A stretch of 64,000 nucleotides of DNA from Sphingobacteriales bacterium (GTDB taxonomy: Bacteria; Bacteroidota; Bacteroidia; Sphingobacteriales; Sphingobacteriaceae). The notes below the pieces were generated by a model. That model saw only the letters and a program-made list of their open reading frames with translations. It searched no databases and was not told where the DNA came from. The stretch lies in NCBI GenBank assembly GCA_004293485.1, contig RDYW01000045.1, positions 24,129 through 88,128 of the forward strand, given 5' to 3'. This document shows positions 373 through 6,451 of the stretch, in pieces; the stretch's first letter is position 1, and every line of letters begins with the position of its first letter. The position numbers and the translations under genes were made by a program.

Positions 373-1212
373 ATGAACTTTTTACAAATTACTTGGAACC
401 CAAATCCCAATTTAATTGATTTTGGGTTTATAGTCATAAAATACTATTCGGTGTGTTTTATGTTGGCTTTTGCGGCAAGCTATGTAGTTGTAAAACAAAA
501 TACCGAATATAAAACAAACCCATTATTATTAGATAGTTTAACCATTTATGTTTTTTTAGGCACATTGTTAGGGGCTAGGTTAGGGCATTGTTTATTTTAC
601 GATTTCGATTATTTTAGCCAACACCCACTAGAAATTTTATTGCCTGTAACTTTCGAACCCGAATTTAAATTTACAGGCTTTAGTGGTTTGGCCAGCCACG
701 GTGGCGGTACAGGCATATTAATTAGCCTTTTATTGTTTAGCAAAAAACACAAAATTAAACCTTGGGTATTAATAGATCAGATTGCATTAGTAGTGCCTTT
801 GGCTGGTTTTTTTATCAGAATGGGTAACCTAATGAATTCCGAAATTATAGGTAAACCAACCAATGTAAGTTGGGCTTTTGTATTTGTAAATGAAGATTAT
901 TTACCCCGCCACCCAGCACAGTTGTACGAAGCCATCGCTTATTTATTAATTTTTGTTTTGCTTTACTATGCCATAAAAAAATGGCCTAAACCAGCTGGTT
1001 TTTATTTTGGTTTGTGCATTACGCTTATTTTTATAGTTCGTTTTTTTGTGGAATTTATAAAAGAAAACCAAGCTGATTTTGAAAGTACAATGCCCATAAA
1101 TATGGGTCAAATTTTAAGCTTCCCTTTTATTGTTGTAGGTGTGGTAATTATGTGCCTTAAATTTTATCCCAAAAATAATTCTCAAAATGAATATGAAAAT
1201 CCAAAAAATTAA
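373..1212 (+). CDS. lgt: Prolipoprotein diacylglyceryl transferase
   Basis: Inner-membrane enzyme that moves diacylglycerol from phosphatidylglycerol to the lipobox cysteine of prolipoproteins. The 279-residue protein is polytopic. It carries HGGGTGILI (catalytic His region), the Lgt signature RMGNLMNSEIIGKPT and HPAQLYEA. I chose the ATG at 373, not the in-frame TTG at 352, because the product then starts MNFLQITWNP as expected for the family and does not overlap the GTPase. It sits between a CobW GTPase and a MerC-like protein. Its placement in a metal operon with a lipoprotein nearby may be chance or functional. Identity is secure; the operon link is inferred. Confidence 0.95.
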   Translation: MNFLQITWNPNPNLIDFGFIVIKYYSVCFMLAFAASYVVVKQNTEYKTNPLLLDSLTIYVFLGTLLGARLGHCLFYDFDYFSQHPLEILLPVTFEPEFKFTGFSGLASHGGGTGILISLLLFSKKHKIKPWVLIDQIALVVPLAGFFIRMGNLMNSEIIGKPTNVSWAFVFVNEDYLPRHPAQLYEAIAYLLIFVLLYYAIKKWPKPAGFYFGLCITLIFIVRFFVEFIKENQADFESTMPINMGQILSFPFIVVGVVIMCLKFYPKNNSQNEYENPKN

Positions 1213-1594
1213 TTTGCAGCTAGATGGTATAGGTATGCTTGCATCAACGCTTTGTGCCATACACTGCGTTTTTGTACCTTTGCTTTTAAGCACATTACCG
1301 CTTTGGGGAATTGGTTTTTTGGCCAACCAATGGGTAGAGGTTGTAATGATAATAGTTTCTTTGTTTTTAGGCTCGGTATCGTTAGGTGCAAATTTTTTTA
1401 ACCATCGTAAAATACTGCCTTTACTAATTTTGTTGATTGGATTTGGATTAATTGCCCTAGGTGATTTTTGCGGTAACGATAATTTAGAACCTATATTTGT
1501 ACCTTTAGGCGGTTTTACAATTTCTATTTCACATCTAATAAACTGGCGTTATGTGCGTTTATTAAACCAAAAACATTTACATAAAACACTATAA
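1187..1594 (+). CDS. MerC-like membrane protein
   Basis: A 135-residue protein with about four predicted membrane helices. Near the N-terminus it has the motif LCAIHCVFVP, the paired cysteines (about 24 and 28) that define the MerC domain. MerC proteins carry thiol-bound metal (Hg in mer operons) across the inner membrane. No merA, merP or merT is seen here, and the neighbours are CobW GTPases and a Zur-type regulator. A zinc or other divalent-metal role is therefore more likely than mercury resistance. The start overlaps lgt by 26 bases. A second ATG at 1193 would remove two residues. The tail is His-bearing (KHLHK). Function is inferred from domain and context. Confidence 0.8.
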   Translation: MNMKIQKINLQLDGIGMLASTLCAIHCVFVPLLLSTLPLWGIGFLANQWVEVVMIIVSLFLGSVSLGANFFNHRKILPLLILLIGFGLIALGDFCGNDNLEPIFVPLGGFTISISHLINWRYVRLLNQKHLHKTL

Positions 1595-1613: not shown

Positions 1614-2240
1614 ATGGTAAAAGTTAATTCTCTTTCGCATAGTTTTGGCAACAATACCCATTTATCTTTCCCCGATTGGGAGATTAAATCTGGAGAGCAA
1701 TATTTGTTTTTAGGCAATTCGGGCAGTGGTAAAACTACTTTAATTCATATTTTAACAGGCTTGTTAAATCCCCAAAAGGGGAAAATATGGATAAACAATA
1801 CTGATATTTACGCCTTAACCCCATCAAAATTAGATAGTTTTAGAGGCAAAAACATTGGATTAATATTTCAGCAAGCACACCTTATAAAAAGTTTAAACGT
1901 TTTTCAAAATTTAAGCATAGCCCAAAGTTTTGCTGGCTTAAAGCCCGATAAACAGCGTATTAACCAAGTATTAGATGTGTTACAAATACTATCTAAAGCC
2001 AACAATTACCCGCACCAGCTTAGCCAAGGGCAAGCACAAAGGGTGGCCATTGCAAGGGCGGTAATAAATAAACCTGCATTGTTAGTTGCGGATGAGCCTA
2101 CATCCAGCCTCGATGATGAAAATGCGGAAATTGTGCTGCAACTATTAAAAAATTTATCACAAGCCAATGGTTCCACTTTAATTATTGCCACCCACGATGC
2201 TAGGTTAAAACCATCTTTTACTAACCAATACGTACTATAA
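1614..2240 (+). CDS. ABC transporter ATP-binding protein (LolD/MacB-type)
   Basis: A 208-residue ATPase with Walker A GNSGSGKTTL (about residue 34), Q-loop IFQQ, signature LSQGQAQRVAIARA, Walker B LLVADEPT and an H-loop ATHD. The short length, and the LolD-like spacing with the permease directly after it, place it in the MacB/LolD/FtsE class that drives FtsX-type permeases. These act on periplasmic or membrane substrates by mechanotransmission more often than by classical transport. The stop codon is immediately followed by the permease ATG at 2241. The substrate is unknown. The metal-locus context suggests a metal, metallophore or lipoprotein cargo. Confidence 0.9.
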   Translation: MVKVNSLSHSFGNNTHLSFPDWEIKSGEQYLFLGNSGSGKTTLIHILTGLLNPQKGKIWINNTDIYALTPSKLDSFRGKNIGLIFQQAHLIKSLNVFQNLSIAQSFAGLKPDKQRINQVLDVLQILSKANNYPHQLSQGQAQRVAIARAVINKPALLVADEPTSSLDDENAEIVLQLLKNLSQANGSTLIIATHDARLKPSFTNQYVL

Positions 2241-3446
2241 ATGAATGTTATAAGTATAAGTTTTAAAAGTTTAATGGCCAATAAGTTATCGGCTTTTTTA
2301 AATATCTTGTTAATAGCATTTGGGGTAAGTATATTAACCATTTTGCTGTTGGTAAGCAACCAAATACAAAATAAGTTAGAAAACAACGCCCGTGGAATTG
2401 ATGCCGTGGTAGGTGCAAAAGGCAGTCCGTTACAATTAATTTTAAGCAGCATTTATTATATTGATTTCCCCACGGGCAATATACCCTTAAAAGCTGCCAA
2501 CGAATTGGCCAAAAACCGAATGGTAAAACTTGCAGTGCCACTTGCCTTGGGCGATAATTTTAACGGTTACCGCATTGCTGGTACCAATAGCAGTTTTATA
2601 AAATTATACAATTTAAAACTGGCCGATGGTAAATTTTGGGATAAAGATTTTGAGGTTACGCTTGGCGCAGATGTTGCCAAAACACAAAAACTAAAAATTG
2701 GAGATATATTTTTTGGCGCACACGGCCTAGCCGATAATAGCGATATGCACAAAAGCCACGCCTACAAAGTGGCAGGTATTTTAACCCCTAATGCCAATGT
2801 AACCGACCAATTGGTAATTACAAATATAGCCAGCGTATGGAAAATGCATCAACACGAAGACGAACACGAAGCCGAAAACCCGCTGCCCCAAAGCCCGCAG
2901 CCCGAGGCAGAAATAACCTCCTTACTTATCAAATACAAATCGCCCATATCGGTTATACTATTTCCTAAATTGGTAAACGAAACTACAAACCTACAGGCCG
3001 CATCGCCAGCCATAGAAAGTACCCGTTTGTTTTCTTTAATAGGCGTGGGAGTAGATACACTGCAATATTTTGCGATTTTGATTATGGTAATTTCGGTGGT
3101 AAGTGTTTTTATAAGTTTGTTTAACTCGCTAAAACAGCGCAAATACGATTTAGCCATTATGCGTACAATGGGTGCATCAAAAACTAAAATTTTTTTAATA
3201 GTAATTTTAGAAGGCTTTTTTTTATCGCTTTTAGGTACGTTATTAGGTTGGTTTTTGGGGCATTTGGTTTTGCAGTATTTGGGCAGTTTGCAAGATGCTG
3301 GGCAATCAAAACTAACAGGTTTTATATTTTTAACACAAGAGTTTTATTTGATTTTGGTGGGATTGTGTACTGGAATTTTTGCCGCCACACTACCAGCTAT
3401 CGCAGCGTATAGGGTTAATATCTCTAAAATATTGAGTACCAACTAA
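2241..3446 (+). CDS. FtsX/MacB-type ABC permease with His-rich extracytoplasmic loop
   Basis: A 401-residue permease: one N-terminal membrane helix (about 20-42), a large extracytoplasmic domain, then three C-terminal helices with the FtsX-like segment YDLAIMRTMGAS before the second one. The soluble domain holds two His groups. H161, H170 and H173 lie in GAHGLADNSDMHKSHAY. H203, H205 and H209 lie in KMHQHEDEHEAE, an acidic stretch that looks like a metal-capture loop. FtsX-type ABC systems linked to zinc are known from other bacteria (Zrg of Vibrio, from memory), which fits the CobW and Zur neighbours. No periplasmic binding protein is adjacent. A metal substrate is inference; the fold assignment is firm. 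Confidence 0.85.
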   Translation: MNVISISFKSLMANKLSAFLNILLIAFGVSILTILLLVSNQIQNKLENNARGIDAVVGAKGSPLQLILSSIYYIDFPTGNIPLKAANELAKNRMVKLAVPLALGDNFNGYRIAGTNSSFIKLYNLKLADGKFWDKDFEVTLGADVAKTQKLKIGDIFFGAHGLADNSDMHKSHAYKVAGILTPNANVTDQLVITNIASVWKMHQHEDEHEAENPLPQSPQPEAEITSLLIKYKSPISVILFPKLVNETTNLQAASPAIESTRLFSLIGVGVDTLQYFAILIMVISVVSVFISLFNSLKQRKYDLAIMRTMGASKTKIFLIVILEGFFLSLLGTLLGWFLGHLVLQYLGSLQDAGQSKLTGFIFLTQEFYLILVGLCTGIFAATLPAIAAYRVNISKILSTN

Positions 3447-3478
3447 ATTTTAGCTGCTACATTTTACGATAATAGTTT

Positions 3479-3510
3479 AAAAAAAAACTGCTTTTAAAGC
3501 GGTTTTTTTT
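3479..3510. terminator. Bidirectional rho-independent terminator
   Basis: AACTGCTTT and AAAGCGGTT form a hairpin with A and T tracts on both sides. It sits between the convergent ABC permease (+) and His-rich lipoprotein (-) genes, so it can serve both. Confidence 0.75.
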
Positions 3511-3997
3511 ATTTCAACTTATCTTCTACTTTAATTTTATTGTCTTGCTGCAGTATTATTTTATGGTCGGTTTCTATTTTTTTATGGTCGGCCATAAGCA
3601 TTTCATCATCTTCAAGCATTTTTTTATGTTCGGCGATAATTTCTTCATCGGGTGTGTTACCGTCGGCGTGTTTTTTCTCTAGCAATTCGTGTGCTGCTAT
3701 TAAAGCCGAATGTTTTTCGATTAACAAAGTATGTGATTGCAATATTTTTTCGTGTACCGCTTCTATTTTATTATGCGCACTCGTATCGGCCTCTTCTAAA
3801 GCATTGTGTTTTGTAATAAAAGCTGCGTGTTCAGCTTCCATTGCTGTATGTGCATCTTCCAATATTTTATGGTCGGTTTCAATTTTTGCATGCTCGGCAT
3901 TCAATTCTTTTTCTAGTGCTGCATTTTTTTGGTTGCAAGCTGCAAAAAATAATGAGGTTGTTAACCCAAGTGCTATAATTAGTGTTTTAGTTTTCAT
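3509..3997 (-). CDS. Lipoprotein with heptad-spaced histidines (putative metal-binding coiled coil)
   Basis: I chose the ATG at 3997 over the one at 4012. It gives a 162-residue protein with a clean signal peptide and the lipobox LFFAAC; the lipidated Cys is residue 21. The mature part is all-helical and charged. It has 14 His at residues 36, 43, 50, 57, 64, 75, 82, 89, 96, 103, 110, 124, 138 and 145, so the spacing is 7 almost throughout, with one 11 and two 14. Most repeats read H-x-x-[ILMF]-x-x-x, placing His at one core position and a hydrophobic residue at the other. IETDHKI occurs near both ends. I recognise no named family. Location in the metal locus and a Zur-like operator at its promoter suggest periplasmic or outer-membrane zinc binding. 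Confidence 0.8.
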   Translation of the reverse strand: MKTKTLIIALGLTTSLFFAACNQKNAALEKELNAEHAKIETDHKILEDAHTAMEAEHAAFITKHNALEEADTSAHNKIEAVHEKILQSHTLLIEKHSALIAAHELLEKKHADGNTPDEEIIAEHKKMLEDDEMLMADHKKIETDHKIILQQDNKIKVEDKLK

Positions 3998-4009
3998 AAT
4001 TTTTTTTAA

Positions 4010-4038
4010 CAAATTTAGGTAAAAAAACTTAAACGCAA
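4010..4038 (-). promoter_or_regulatory. Predicted promoter of the His-rich lipoprotein
   Basis: On the minus strand, TTG (4036-4038) is followed by 18 bases and then TAAATTTG (4010-4017). This is a perfect match to the Bacteroidota pattern TTG-N17-20-TAnnTTTG. The TTG lies inside the palindrome at 4034-4048, so a bound repressor would block it. Confidence 0.65.
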
Positions 4039-4048
4039 CAATGTTGAA
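4034..4048. promoter_or_regulatory. Putative Zur-type operator A
   Basis: CGCAACAATGTTGAA has a perfect 11-base palindrome core, CAACA-A-TGTTG, and matches TGCAACAATGTTGCA at 13 of 15 positions. It covers the -33 element of the His-rich lipoprotein promoter. Assignment to the Fur/Zur protein at 6014 is inference from proximity and from two more copies nearby. Confidence 0.6.
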
Positions 4049-4072
4049 TTATATTTTACAAAATGTTATGTT

Positions 4073-4087
4073 TGCAACATTGTAGCA
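4073..4087. promoter_or_regulatory. Putative Zur-type operator B
   Basis: TGCAACATTGTAGCA differs from the perfect palindrome TGCAACATTGTTGCA at one position. It lies 21 bases upstream of the ATG at 4108 and begins at the G of a TTTG (4071-4074) that could be the -33 element for that small gene. Its centre is 39 bases from that of operator A. Confidence 0.6.
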
Positions 4088-4107
4088 TTAACTTAAATAT
4101 ATTAAAA

Positions 4108-4314
4108 ATGATACCACAAACATTTGAACAATGGGCAAATTGCATCGCTAACGATTGTAAAATAAAACTTACACAAGAATTTGCCCAACAACGTTTAGCT
4201 GTATATGAAAACAAACAATCCAAAGAAACTCAAAACTTTATTACACTATACGGCTCGCAACATTTAGTAAATGTTGTTTTATGGTTAAACCAAATTAACA
4301 ATAGTTTTAATTAA
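4108..4314 (+). CDS. Small 68-residue protein of unknown function in the metal locus
   Basis: I do not recognise a named family. The ATG at 4108 is preferred over the in-frame ATG at 4063, because the longer version would place operator B inside the coding region. The product starts MIPQTFEQWANCIANDCKI, with two Cys five residues apart (C12, C17). It continues as a mixed polar helix with no signal peptide or membrane segment, so it is probably cytosolic. It is transcribed divergently from the His-rich lipoprotein across a promoter region with two Zur-like operators. That context makes a zinc-starvation protein likely. Confidence 0.65.
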   Translation: MIPQTFEQWANCIANDCKIKLTQEFAQQRLAVYENKQSKETQNFITLYGSQHLVNVVLWLNQINNSFN

Positions 4315-4385
4315 TTAATAACCTGAATTCGATTTTATATTTTTTTTCAAAATACATTAAATCAAGAGTTTATCACGATTTTAGA

Positions 4386-4526
4386 GCGTTAACGATTGAG
4401 GCGGCTCGCCTGCTGGCCGGCAGGCATCCTTTTTATCAATTGCCCCCGACTTTAGTCGGGGATGCAATTGATAAAAGATACTTGCCTGCTTGGCAAGTAG
4501 GCAGCCGAAAGCGTGTTAAAACGCCC
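4386..4526 (+). repeat. Dispersed structured repeat, copy 1
   Basis: This non-coding stretch between the small gene and the CobW GTPase starts GCGTTAACGATTGAGGCGGC and ends AGCGTGTTAAAACGCCC. Between these are nested hairpins: GCCTGC-TGGCC-GGCAGGC, then ATCAATTGC paired with GCAATTGAT enclosing CCCCGACtttaGTCGGGG, then CTTGCC-TGCTT-GGCAAG. The flanking words CATCCTTTTT and AAAAGATA recur in copies at 31453, 49861 and 54414. Apart from operator C, nothing else is seen in the 4315-4653 gap. Confidence 0.75.
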
Positions 4527-4597
4527 AAATTATTGCTAAACTGTAACTCCGAGTTTTTATTAATCGAACTCAGGTTAATAAGTAATTCAAACAATAA

Positions 4598-4612
4598 TGC
4601 AATATAGTTGCA
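4598..4612. promoter_or_regulatory. Putative Zur-type operator C
   Basis: TGCAATATAGTTGCA has perfect TGCAA/TTGCA arms and matches the consensus of operators A and B at 13 of 15 positions. It contains the TTG of the promoter predicted at 4608-4637 in front of the complete CobW GTPase gene. Confidence 0.65.
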
Positions 4613-4637
4613 TTTAAAAATCATTAAGTTATCTTTA
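4608..4637 (+). promoter_or_regulatory. Predicted promoter of the CobW-type GTPase
   Basis: TTG at 4608-4610, 19 bases, then TATCTTTA at 4630-4637, which is one base off TAnnTTTG. The start codon follows at 4654. The -33 part is covered by operator C. Confidence 0.5.
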
Positions 4638-4653
4638 CCACAAAAATTAAACT

Positions 4654-5841
4654 ATGCAATTAAAAAAACTTCCAGTAACCGTATTGAGCGGGTTTTTAGG
4701 AACAGGTAAAACCACACTTTTAAATCATATACTACATAATAAGCAAAACCTACGTGTTGCGGTAATTGTAAACGATATGAGCGAGGTAAATATTGATGCT
4801 CAATTAATTAAAAACGAGGGGACACTATCGCGTACCGAAGAAAAATTAGTGGAAATGAGCAATGGTTGTATTTGTTGCACCTTGCGTGAAGATTTAATGA
4901 TTGAGGTAGAAAAATTGGCCAAAGAAAACCGATTTGATTATTTGTTGATAGAAAGTACGGGCATATCGGAACCTATACCCGTAGCGCAAACTTTCACTTT
5001 CGTGGATGATGAAAAAAGCATCGACCTATCGAGGTTTAGCTATGTAGATACGATGGTTACTGTAGTAGATTGCTTTAATTTTTTTAAAGATTTTGGTACA
5101 GATGAACGCCTGCAAGACCGTAACCTAACCGAAACAATGGAGGATACCCGCACCATTGTAAACCTACTTACGGACCAAATAGAGTTTGCCAACGTGATAG
5201 TTTTAAACAAAACCGATTTGGTGCAACGTGGCGATGTAAAACTTTTAAAAGCATTAATTAATAAACTAAACCCCGATGCAAAAATTATAGAAAGTGAGTT
5301 TTCTAAAATAGATTGCAAGCAGATATTAAACACAGGCTTGTTCGATTTTGAAACGGCATCAAACTCGGCAGGGTGGATAAAAGAATTAAACGAAGAGCAT
5401 ACACCCGAAACTGAGGAATACGGCATAGGTTCGATGGTGTTTAGAAACAATCGCCCTTTTCATCCCGCTAGGTTTACCAAGTTTTTAAACGATGATTTTC
5501 CTAACAATATTATTCGTAGCAAAGGCTTGTTTTGGATGGCCAATGCGCCCGATAATGCCGTAAATTTTTCGCAGGCTGGTGGCTCATCTCGTATGGAAAG
5601 TGCAGGTGTGTGGTGGGCAAGTATGCCTTTTGAAGAACGCATTACTTACCAAGATTTTGTAGAAAATAAAGATTATATTGAAAAAAAATGGACAAAAGAT
5701 TTTGGCGACCGTGTAAACGAATTGGTTTTTATTGCCCAAGATTTAGATAAAGATGATTTGCAAAAACAATTAGAAACTTGTTTAATAACCGATGATGAAG
5801 TGTTGCTTTACCGTAGCGGGCATAGGTTTGATGAAGTGTAA
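4654..5841 (+). CDS. CobW-type (G3E) GTPase, putative zinc chaperone
   Basis: A complete 395-residue G3E GTPase. Walker A is GFLGTGKTT (residues 13-21). The family metal motif CICC lies at 72-75 and ESTGISEP at about 100-107. The guanine-specificity motif NKTD is near residue 190, and a CobW C-terminal domain ends in RSGHRFDEV. The CxCC cysteines bind the metal that couples to GTP hydrolysis in CobW, YciC and ZNG1-type proteins. Members controlled by Zur supply zinc to essential enzymes during starvation. The promoter carries a Zur-like palindrome and the next gene encodes a Fur/Zur regulator, which strongly favours zinc over cobalt. It is acting alone here, with no cobalamin genes nearby. 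Confidence 0.9.
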   Translation: MQLKKLPVTVLSGFLGTGKTTLLNHILHNKQNLRVAVIVNDMSEVNIDAQLIKNEGTLSRTEEKLVEMSNGCICCTLREDLMIEVEKLAKENRFDYLLIESTGISEPIPVAQTFTFVDDEKSIDLSRFSYVDTMVTVVDCFNFFKDFGTDERLQDRNLTETMEDTRTIVNLLTDQIEFANVIVLNKTDLVQRGDVKLLKALINKLNPDAKIIESEFSKIDCKQILNTGLFDFETASNSAGWIKELNEEHTPETEEYGIGSMVFRNNRPFHPARFTKFLNDDFPNNIIRSKGLFWMANAPDNAVNFSQAGGSSRMESAGVWWASMPFEERITYQDFVENKDYIEKKWTKDFGDRVNELVFIAQDLDKDDLQKQLETCLITDDEVLLYRSGHRFDEV

Positions 5842-6013: not shown

Positions 6014-6451
6014 ATGCAAGCCAACCCGCAACACAACCAACTATTAGTTAAACATAACCTTAAAATAACCACACCACGGTTAAGTGTATTAGCGGTTTTA
6101 ACCACTAGAGAAATGGCAACATCGCAGCCCGATTTAGAACAATTACTGGGTAGCAAAATAGATAGGGTTACGCTGTACCGCACCCTTAGTACATTTGAAA
6201 AAAAAGGGATTTTACATAAAGTTATGGGGGCTAATGGCACATTAAATTATGCCCTATGTTCCGGTGCTTGTACCCAACATAACCACCACGACAAGCATGT
6301 ACATTTTAATTGCACCTTATGTTTAAATGTTTACTGTTTAGATAAACTTCAAATTCCGCAGCTACAAATTCCAGATGGTTTTACAACAAAAAAAATAGAT
6401 TTAATGGTAAGTGGCGTTTGCCATAAATGTAATAACGCTGATAGTAAATAA
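6014..6451 (+). CDS. zur: Fur-family metalloregulator, probably Zur
   Basis: A 145-residue Fur-family repressor: an N-terminal winged helix (KITTPRLSVLAVL, DRVTLYRTLSTFEKKG) and a C-terminal dimerisation domain. The sensory His cluster is HNHHDKHVH (residues 89-97). Two CxxC pairs, C100/C103 and C136/C139, form the structural zinc site. The family includes Fur, Zur, Mur and PerR. Zur is preferred because the locus holds two CobW GTPases, a MerC-like protein and His-rich extracytoplasmic proteins but no iron-uptake genes. It is likely the protein that binds the three palindromes at 4034, 4073 and 4598. No such palindrome precedes its own gene. Confidence 0.75.
   Translation: MQANPQHNQLLVKHNLKITTPRLSVLAVLTTREMATSQPDLEQLLGSKIDRVTLYRTLSTFEKKGILHKVMGANGTLNYALCSGACTQHNHHDKHVHFNCTLCLNVYCLDKLQIPQLQIPDGFTTKKIDLMVSGVCHKCNNADSK

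Follow-up and report, generated by a model that had tools for sequence, protein, structure and literature searches.

SmbP of Nitrosomonas europaea (PF16785) is a periplasmic protein of about 9.9 kDa with ten seven-residue repeats and many histidines, linked to copper and proposed as a metal scavenger (PMC8905625, PMC10893511). ZrgA, or PA4063 (PF10986), is an extracytoplasmic zinc binder under Zur control, in which a ferredoxin-like fold carries a disordered His-rich loop and which takes up to ten zinc ions in vitro (PMC9820375); ZnuA-type solute-binding proteins and ZinT are periplasmic zinc binders of Zur regulons as well (PMC6103462). Csp1 and Csp3, induced by high copper, are four-helix bundles with a core lined by many ligands, mainly Cys, for Cu(I) (PMC7558416), and in designed three-stranded coiled coils one His per helix makes up a His3 site for Zn or Co (PMC13262294). 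Here we describe a lipoprotein gene in a 64,000-nucleotide stretch of DNA (the window) from a Sphingobacteriales bacterium, whose product carries 14 His in a seven-residue ladder. By analogy we take it to belong with the His-rich extracytoplasmic zinc-binding proteins: it probably binds a row of zinc ions through its His, and would be made in zinc starvation to hold or hand on periplasmic zinc. The window lies on contig C30 of a genome of 2.2 Mb in 89 contigs (G000). The gene and its parts are as follows:

3509..3997, minus strand: His-ladder lipoprotein gene, 162 residues, 14 His at heptad position a
3935..3997, minus strand: signal peptide with a lipobox-like end (..LFFAAC, residues 16–21, Cys21), judged by eye
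3803..3934, minus strand: predicted helix 1, mature part (residues 22–65), with His36/43/50/57/64 (AlphaFold2 model)
3662..3781, minus strand: predicted helix 2 (residues 73–112), with His75/82/89/96/103/110 (AlphaFold2 model)
3515..3649, minus strand: predicted helix 3 (residues 117–161), with His124/138/145 and, at the other a positions, Asp117/131/152/159 (AlphaFold2 model)

The gaps between the 14 His are ten of 7 residues, one of 11 and two of 14, and our recount of the 162-residue protein agrees exactly with the original prediction. Ten gaps of seven never arose in 200,000 shuffles of residues 23–162, the best of which had six, while the looser arrangement of nine His in one phase of seven arose in 3 of 200,000. 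In the register of that prediction (a = His, d = hydrophobic), the 19 a positions hold 14 His, 4 Asp, and 1 Glu, and the d positions read LILMFIILLLIMLIII. The gene is not a 21-bp DNA tandem repeat, since Tandem Repeats Finder reports a single 1.9-copy stretch and the 14 His-led 21-mers have a mean identity of 47% (maximum 86%). Cys21 closes a lipoprotein-type signal and is the only Cys of the protein. Because neither a K-(D/E)2 nor a Q-A-(D/E)2 motif, of the type of the surface-export signal described for lipoproteins (PMC5080379), was seen by eye after Cys21, the sequence suggests that the mature lipoprotein likely faces the periplasm. No Pfam or NCBIfam model reached its cut-off with the window protein, and a Pfam scan at E up to 1 gave three weak matches only, the ZnuA-type and ZinT families not among them.

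AlphaFold2 models the protein as a three-helix bundle with helices ≈60 Å long. Designed antiparallel three-helix coiled coils lead the profile matches in the PDB (9r1o, E 1.8e-6), with FosB, KIF21A, and further coiled coils at lower rank; Foldseek found no match to the model in the PDB at E up to 0.001. Both the three helices and the a/d core of an antiparallel three-helix coiled coil are present in these predictions. The helical bundle originally proposed is thereby retained and refined: the predicted helix boundaries suggest a single chain that doubles back on itself to give the three helices, so that the ladder could form inside a monomer. In the model, each of the three antiparallel helices would turn a column of a-position His/Asp toward the core, and provided that helix 1 stands level with helix 2 at the first loop, and helix 2 with helix 3 at the second, the a residues would form layers such as 36/103/124, 43/96/D131, 50/89/138, 57/82/145, and 64/75/D152, i.e., His3 or His2Asp sets spaced ≈10 Å, each of which might hold one zinc. 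A straight-helix sketch gives Cβ–Cβ distances of 4.7–10.7 Å within the a triplets, compatible with a site but no proof of one. We infer metal binding, the identity of the metal, and the stacked His3/His2Asp geometry; the fullest picture, of a 60-Å rod that carries a stack of five or six zinc ions, stores zinc, and relays it across the Bacteroidota periplasm from outer-membrane receptors to import, is a tentative one drawn from the model, and we lean somewhat against it.

A single-sequence search of 5.8 billion proteins returned no match, and alignment-based protein searches returned P0001–P0006, of which P0002 is the protein of locus L048. P0001, P0005, and P0006, which differ in composition and have His heptads in their C-terminal parts, are possibly a separate lineage outside Bacteroidota. 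A genome-contig scan returned one locus (L006), the same gene as that of genome G006. Among 60 related genomes, the single sequence matched in five, where besides the window's own gene the true relatives are those of G006 (73% identity) and G025 (28%); presence is patchy within the genus, at 2 of the 18 genomes in this set. Profile searches covered 399 genomes of the family, 395 of the class, and 395 of the phylum. Counting the window genome each time, members were accepted in 3 of the 5 genomes matched by the single sequence, and in 5 of 14 (family), 10 of 28 (class), and 19 of 20 (phylum) matched by profile; for the class, 15 loci were inspected, and the weaker matches not all. Loci L028, L030, and L034, with no long His-rich frame, were left out, L004 and L069 were set aside as other sequences, and L075 (154 residues, 7 His), which from its sequence may be a further distant member, was not counted. 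Once tandem-repeat and other matches had been removed, 30 family sequences remained, with relatives in several classes of Bacteroidota.

The pattern of His at a and hydrophobic residues at d, which the original prediction had described for the window protein, holds across the family. In an alignment of 14 members, 187 of the 263 a positions are His (71%) and 85% are His, Asp, or Glu, the non-His a residues including 27 Asp, 12 Tyr, and 9 Glu; position d is 97% ILMVFW with no His, and elsewhere in the helices His reaches at most 1%. Conservation stands at 80% in the 14 His columns and at 26% over the other residues, a difference inflated by recruitment with a His-heavy profile; G025, recruited by the window sequence alone, keeps 13 of the 14. 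Six of the 16 sequences added by the phylum search keep the ladder (12–19 His). Across all 30, His57 and His82 are kept in 29, His89 and His96 in 28, His145 in 27, and His138 in 24 of 29. The best Pfam match among the 14 members is Spc29, in one member (E 0.00048), and L050 matches two NCBIfam lipoprotein models below cut-off. Judged by eye, members have secretion signals, those of L048 and L140 being a membrane helix or plain signal peptide without a lipobox Cys, and they share a common length and two fixed loops.

Several search matches are tandem DNA repeats in frame and not members (G299, G140, G035 and others, L055, L057, L058, L059, and L154). Such 21-bp repeats encoding His heptads (HKQLLSG and the like; L026, L035, L037, L039 (G299), and again L057, L058, L059, and L154) are found in several genomes of Bacteroidota, G299 holding several arrays, and are a trap for His-repeat searches. 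Since these repeats read as His heptads, one might suppose that the ladder protein is a low-complexity coiled coil with no specific role and that its matches are chance look-alikes. We consider this very improbable: the window gene is no DNA repeat, the members have the signals, length, and loops just described, and several keep metal-gene neighbors across genera.

The second line of evidence comes from the promoter, with the following features:

4073..4087: Zur-type box A, TGCTACAATGTTGCA on the minus strand, one mismatch to TGCAAYANNRTTGCA
4034..4048: Zur-type box B, TTCAACATTGTTGCG on the minus strand, two mismatches to TGCAAYANNRTTGCA, holding the −33 TTG
4010..4038, minus strand: Bacteroidota-type promoter-like element of the lipoprotein gene, TTG-N18-TAAATTTG
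4598..4612: exact Zur-type box before the ZigA-like gene, TGCAATATAGTTGCA

A Zur-like operator had been proposed at this promoter, and two palindromes of the type TGCAAYANNRTTGCA, a putative operator, were indeed found there. Boxes A and B are odd palindromes in a divergent promoter common to the lipoprotein gene and a small open reading frame (ORF). The Bacteroidota promoter consensus is TTG/TANNTTTG, and because the −33 TTG falls inside box B, a repressor bound there would likely block the lipoprotein promoter. From their sequence, the boxes presumably bind Zur. A sigma-70 scan of 3400–4700 gave 4 promoter-like sites, against 5.2 in shuffles, and the operator pattern tried first, GCAACANTGTTGC with up to two mismatches, was rejected for lack of specificity, with 112 matches per strand against 45 reversed.

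The consensus TGCAAYANNRTTGCA was derived from sites of G000, G006, and G082, so the boxes of these three genomes are not independent evidence; those on contig C150 of G006, before MerC in G082, and on contig C17 of G168 emerged from the search, not from consensus building. Zur-type boxes precede zinc-starvation genes in the window genome and three relatives. Exact boxes number two in the whole of G000, both inside the gene island described below; two in G006, in the divergent promoter of the ladder and ZigA genes and before a small His-rich protein and an AztD-like lipoprotein; three in G082, preceding ZigA, the ladder gene, and MerC; and five in G168, one of them between ZigA and the MerC–ABC (ATP-binding cassette)–permease genes and the other four with no recognizable zinc gene nearby. 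The whole genome of G025 holds none. Of 11 promoters checked, four show the −33/box overlap exactly (the lipoprotein, the small ORF, the G082 ZigA gene, and the NicO operon) and two more with a relaxed −7 element; it is missing in five, including those of the G006 and G082 ladder genes.

Two of these box sites are of interest in themselves. At L081 (G006 C150:18095), the exact box precedes a small Cys/His-rich protein and a lipoprotein whose sole NCBIfam match is AztD, a zinc metallochaperone (75 bits, cut-off 400). At L082 and L087 (G168 C12:69101 and 77075), two exact boxes ≈8 kb apart lie near a C39-peptidase ABC transporter gene and before a small ORF, which at 35.4 bits exceeds the cut-off of 24 for the pinensin-family lanthipeptide leader. 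This hints at a modified peptide under zinc control.

The original prediction also proposed a search for homologues next to Zur or CobW genes, and linkage to CobW is found. Among 20 strong-ladder genomes (the 14 of the alignment, together with G1040, G1003, G1080, G945, G1011, and G972), a CobW-type gene lies within 7 kb of the ladder gene in six (G000, G006, G025, G082, G749, and G1003) where 0.11 are expected, and excluding G000 and G006 in 4 of 18 where 0.07 are expected, the 7-kb limit having been fixed after the loci were seen (the farthest, in G749, is at ≈6 kb). In five genomes a GTPase with ZigA as its best NCBIfam model is close to the ladder gene. In G449, G576, G496, and G586 the ladder gene adjoins, or is two genes from, a TonB receptor that scores best with heme- or ZnuD-type models, in every case far under cut-off, and a heme/ZnuD-type receptor is also near in G749 and G1003. 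TonB receptors are common in the phylum, so that their proximity weighs less than that of CobW. At the G586 locus (L123), two tandem ladder-type genes precede the receptor, the second of which encodes a membrane helix and few His. A short secreted protein with the pattern ..H..C..H..H..C..CDF or CDY also recurs at loci where a TonB receptor or a ZigA gene is close to a ladder gene (L124, L125, L126, L123, and L045); one such Cys/His protein, and a second His-rich small protein of L124, gave no Pfam or NCBIfam match.

Some neighbors speak for metals other than zinc. In G025 the order is ZigA, ladder gene, NicO (26 and 2 bases apart), the last of these being a NicO-type transporter (PF03824); the next gene in G576 is a cation diffusion facilitator (CDF) exporter with DmeF (Co/Ni) as its best model, below that model's cut-off; the receptors near some members match heme, ZnuD, and copper models with scores that fall far short of the cut-offs; and SmbP has been tied to copper (PMC8905625). 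On the other side, the lipoprotein promoter bears the same box as ZigA-like genes, and ZigA-model GTPases stand close by in the five genomes already mentioned. Storage or buffering of cobalt, nickel, or copper instead of zinc, or of several metals alike, is accordingly unlikely in our judgment.

Two observations weigh against zinc binding as the role of the family. Ten relatives from the phylum search (L144–L153) have 7–13 His over the aligned part, in which the a-position His at the helix ends have mostly become Leu, Val, Tyr, Phe, or Ala, and partly Asp/Glu, with the middle (His57, 82, 89, and 96) mostly kept; inspection by eye of their loci of ≈3.5 kb revealed neither a CobW nor a TonB-receptor gene. 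And 10 of the 20 strong-ladder genomes have neither CobW nor an adjacent receptor, although among these G567 has a TonB receptor and G972 a CDF exporter ≈4 kb off, which were left uncounted. The original prediction had named homologues that keep the heptads while exchanging the His as a sign against it; these exist at the rim of the family, as the ten relatives with altered helix ends, and not at its core. Both observations would suit a structural or pH-sensing coiled-coil lipoprotein, an envelope spacer in which buried His tune stability rather than bind metal, as would helices of a predicted ≈60 Å on a lipid anchor. This we hold to be improbable; a zinc binder is favored because Asp, which suits metal ligation, is the commonest non-His a residue, because the promoter is of starvation type with its Zur-type box, and because metal genes, CobW among them, are neighbors in half of the strong-ladder genomes.

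In the window, the lipoprotein gene is surrounded by the following genes:

1187..1594, plus strand: MerC-domain membrane protein
1614..2240, plus strand: ABC ATPase, best NCBIfam models FtsE, DevA, and LolD, all below cut-off
2241..3446, plus strand: FtsX/MacB-type ABC permease, compared with ZrgB
4108..4314, plus strand: small divergent ORF, 68 residues
4654..5841, plus strand: ZigA-like CobW/COG0523 GTPase, 557 bits (cut-off 600)
6014..6451, plus strand: Fur-family regulator, FUR 39.9 bits (cut-off 23.1), NCBIfam Zur 34.5 bits (cut-off 167)

Its gene content marks the region as a zinc-starvation island: Zur regulons often include COG0523 proteins (PMC6103462), and the Fur-family regulator is taken as Zur by context. 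An Lgt gene lies on the same flank as the MerC-domain, ATPase, and permease genes. Locus L046, the 10 kb upstream of the window, holds a NicO transporter, two CobW proteins, a HisI-type cyclohydrolase (PRA-CH), a ferredoxin-like protein (below cut-off), and a protein with no Pfam match that aligns with DUF3299-like proteins of G082. In 2 of 59 other genomes, G032 and G033, relatives of the small ORF (48–50% identity) adjoin CobW-type genes, in G032 close to a box of shape TGCAA-N5-TTGCA; the ORF, which belongs to no known family, is likely a further small protein of the zinc-starvation set.

The adjoining permease raises the question of a transporter partner. In zrg operons such a permease is paired with a zinc-binding periplasmic protein (PMC9817125, PMC9820375), and the permease gene adjoins the ladder gene in the window and in G006 and lies a few kb away in G082, so that the lipoprotein could be the metal-binding partner of this FtsX/MacB-type transporter, substituting for ZrgA as ZrgA serves ZrgBC in Vibrio. 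The permease, however, shows no association with the ladder, being present in 5 of 14 ladder genomes and 10 of 31 hand-picked others, for which reason this explanation was dropped as the leading one; in G168 the permease sits in the ZigA–MerC–ABC cluster and the ladder gene elsewhere, and the P. aeruginosa counterpart of the permease has been read as an exporter (PMC11481552). We regard it as quite unlikely. As for a Zrg-type cluster, one of three DUF3299-like proteins matches at 16.6 bits, below the cut-off of 22; PF11736 was found in 1 of 38 genomes, not G000, with silent controls, and a profile of five DUF3299-like proteins found no related chain in the PDB.

As a probable zinc binder, the ladder protein can be set against the described systems. 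The statement that no protein of this design had been described is not supported in view of SmbP, with which the ladder protein shares the His-rich heptad. Profile, size, and setting differ: PF16785 matched neither the window protein (E up to 1) nor the 14 members (E up to 0.05), and its genome search gave 0 of 18 with silent controls, hence no proof of absence. To our knowledge, SmbP has no tie to Zur-type boxes. With ZrgA it shares the expected role and regulon, whereas fold and sequence differ, the ladder protein being predicted all-helical; PF10986 matched neither the window protein nor the 14 members, and its genome search (0 of 10) again had silent controls and is no proof of absence. 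The all-helical prediction and the lack of a Pfam match likewise separate it from ZnuA-type proteins and ZinT. Unlike the Cys-lined four-helix bundles of the Csp proteins, it has one Cys, three predicted helices, putative His/Asp ligands, and a starvation-type promoter, and in contrast to the one site of the designed coiled coils, about five to six putative layers would be stacked in a natural single chain. Searches of the open-licence PMC literature turned up no paper on the family.

We propose that Zur represses the lipoprotein gene when zinc is plentiful, as the boxes suggest, and that repression lifts at low zinc. The protein would then be exported, anchored, and turned to the periplasm, where in starvation zinc that enters by way of outer-membrane receptors would be captured in its His/Asp layers; this zinc might be buffered, or released to inner-membrane import or to envelope enzymes, while ZigA would work in the cytoplasm. 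If true, the ladder protein would be a natural counterpart of laboratory-designed His metal sites and, for zinc, the equivalent of the copper-filled Csp bundles; the small size of the mature proteins allows expression and titration. A natural repeat of the His3 site along a whole bundle would show the reach of the principle, its selectivity, and its release of metal, and it would bear on a gap in Gram-negative zinc biology, namely the way in which the periplasm retains scarce zinc and passes it from receptor to importer.
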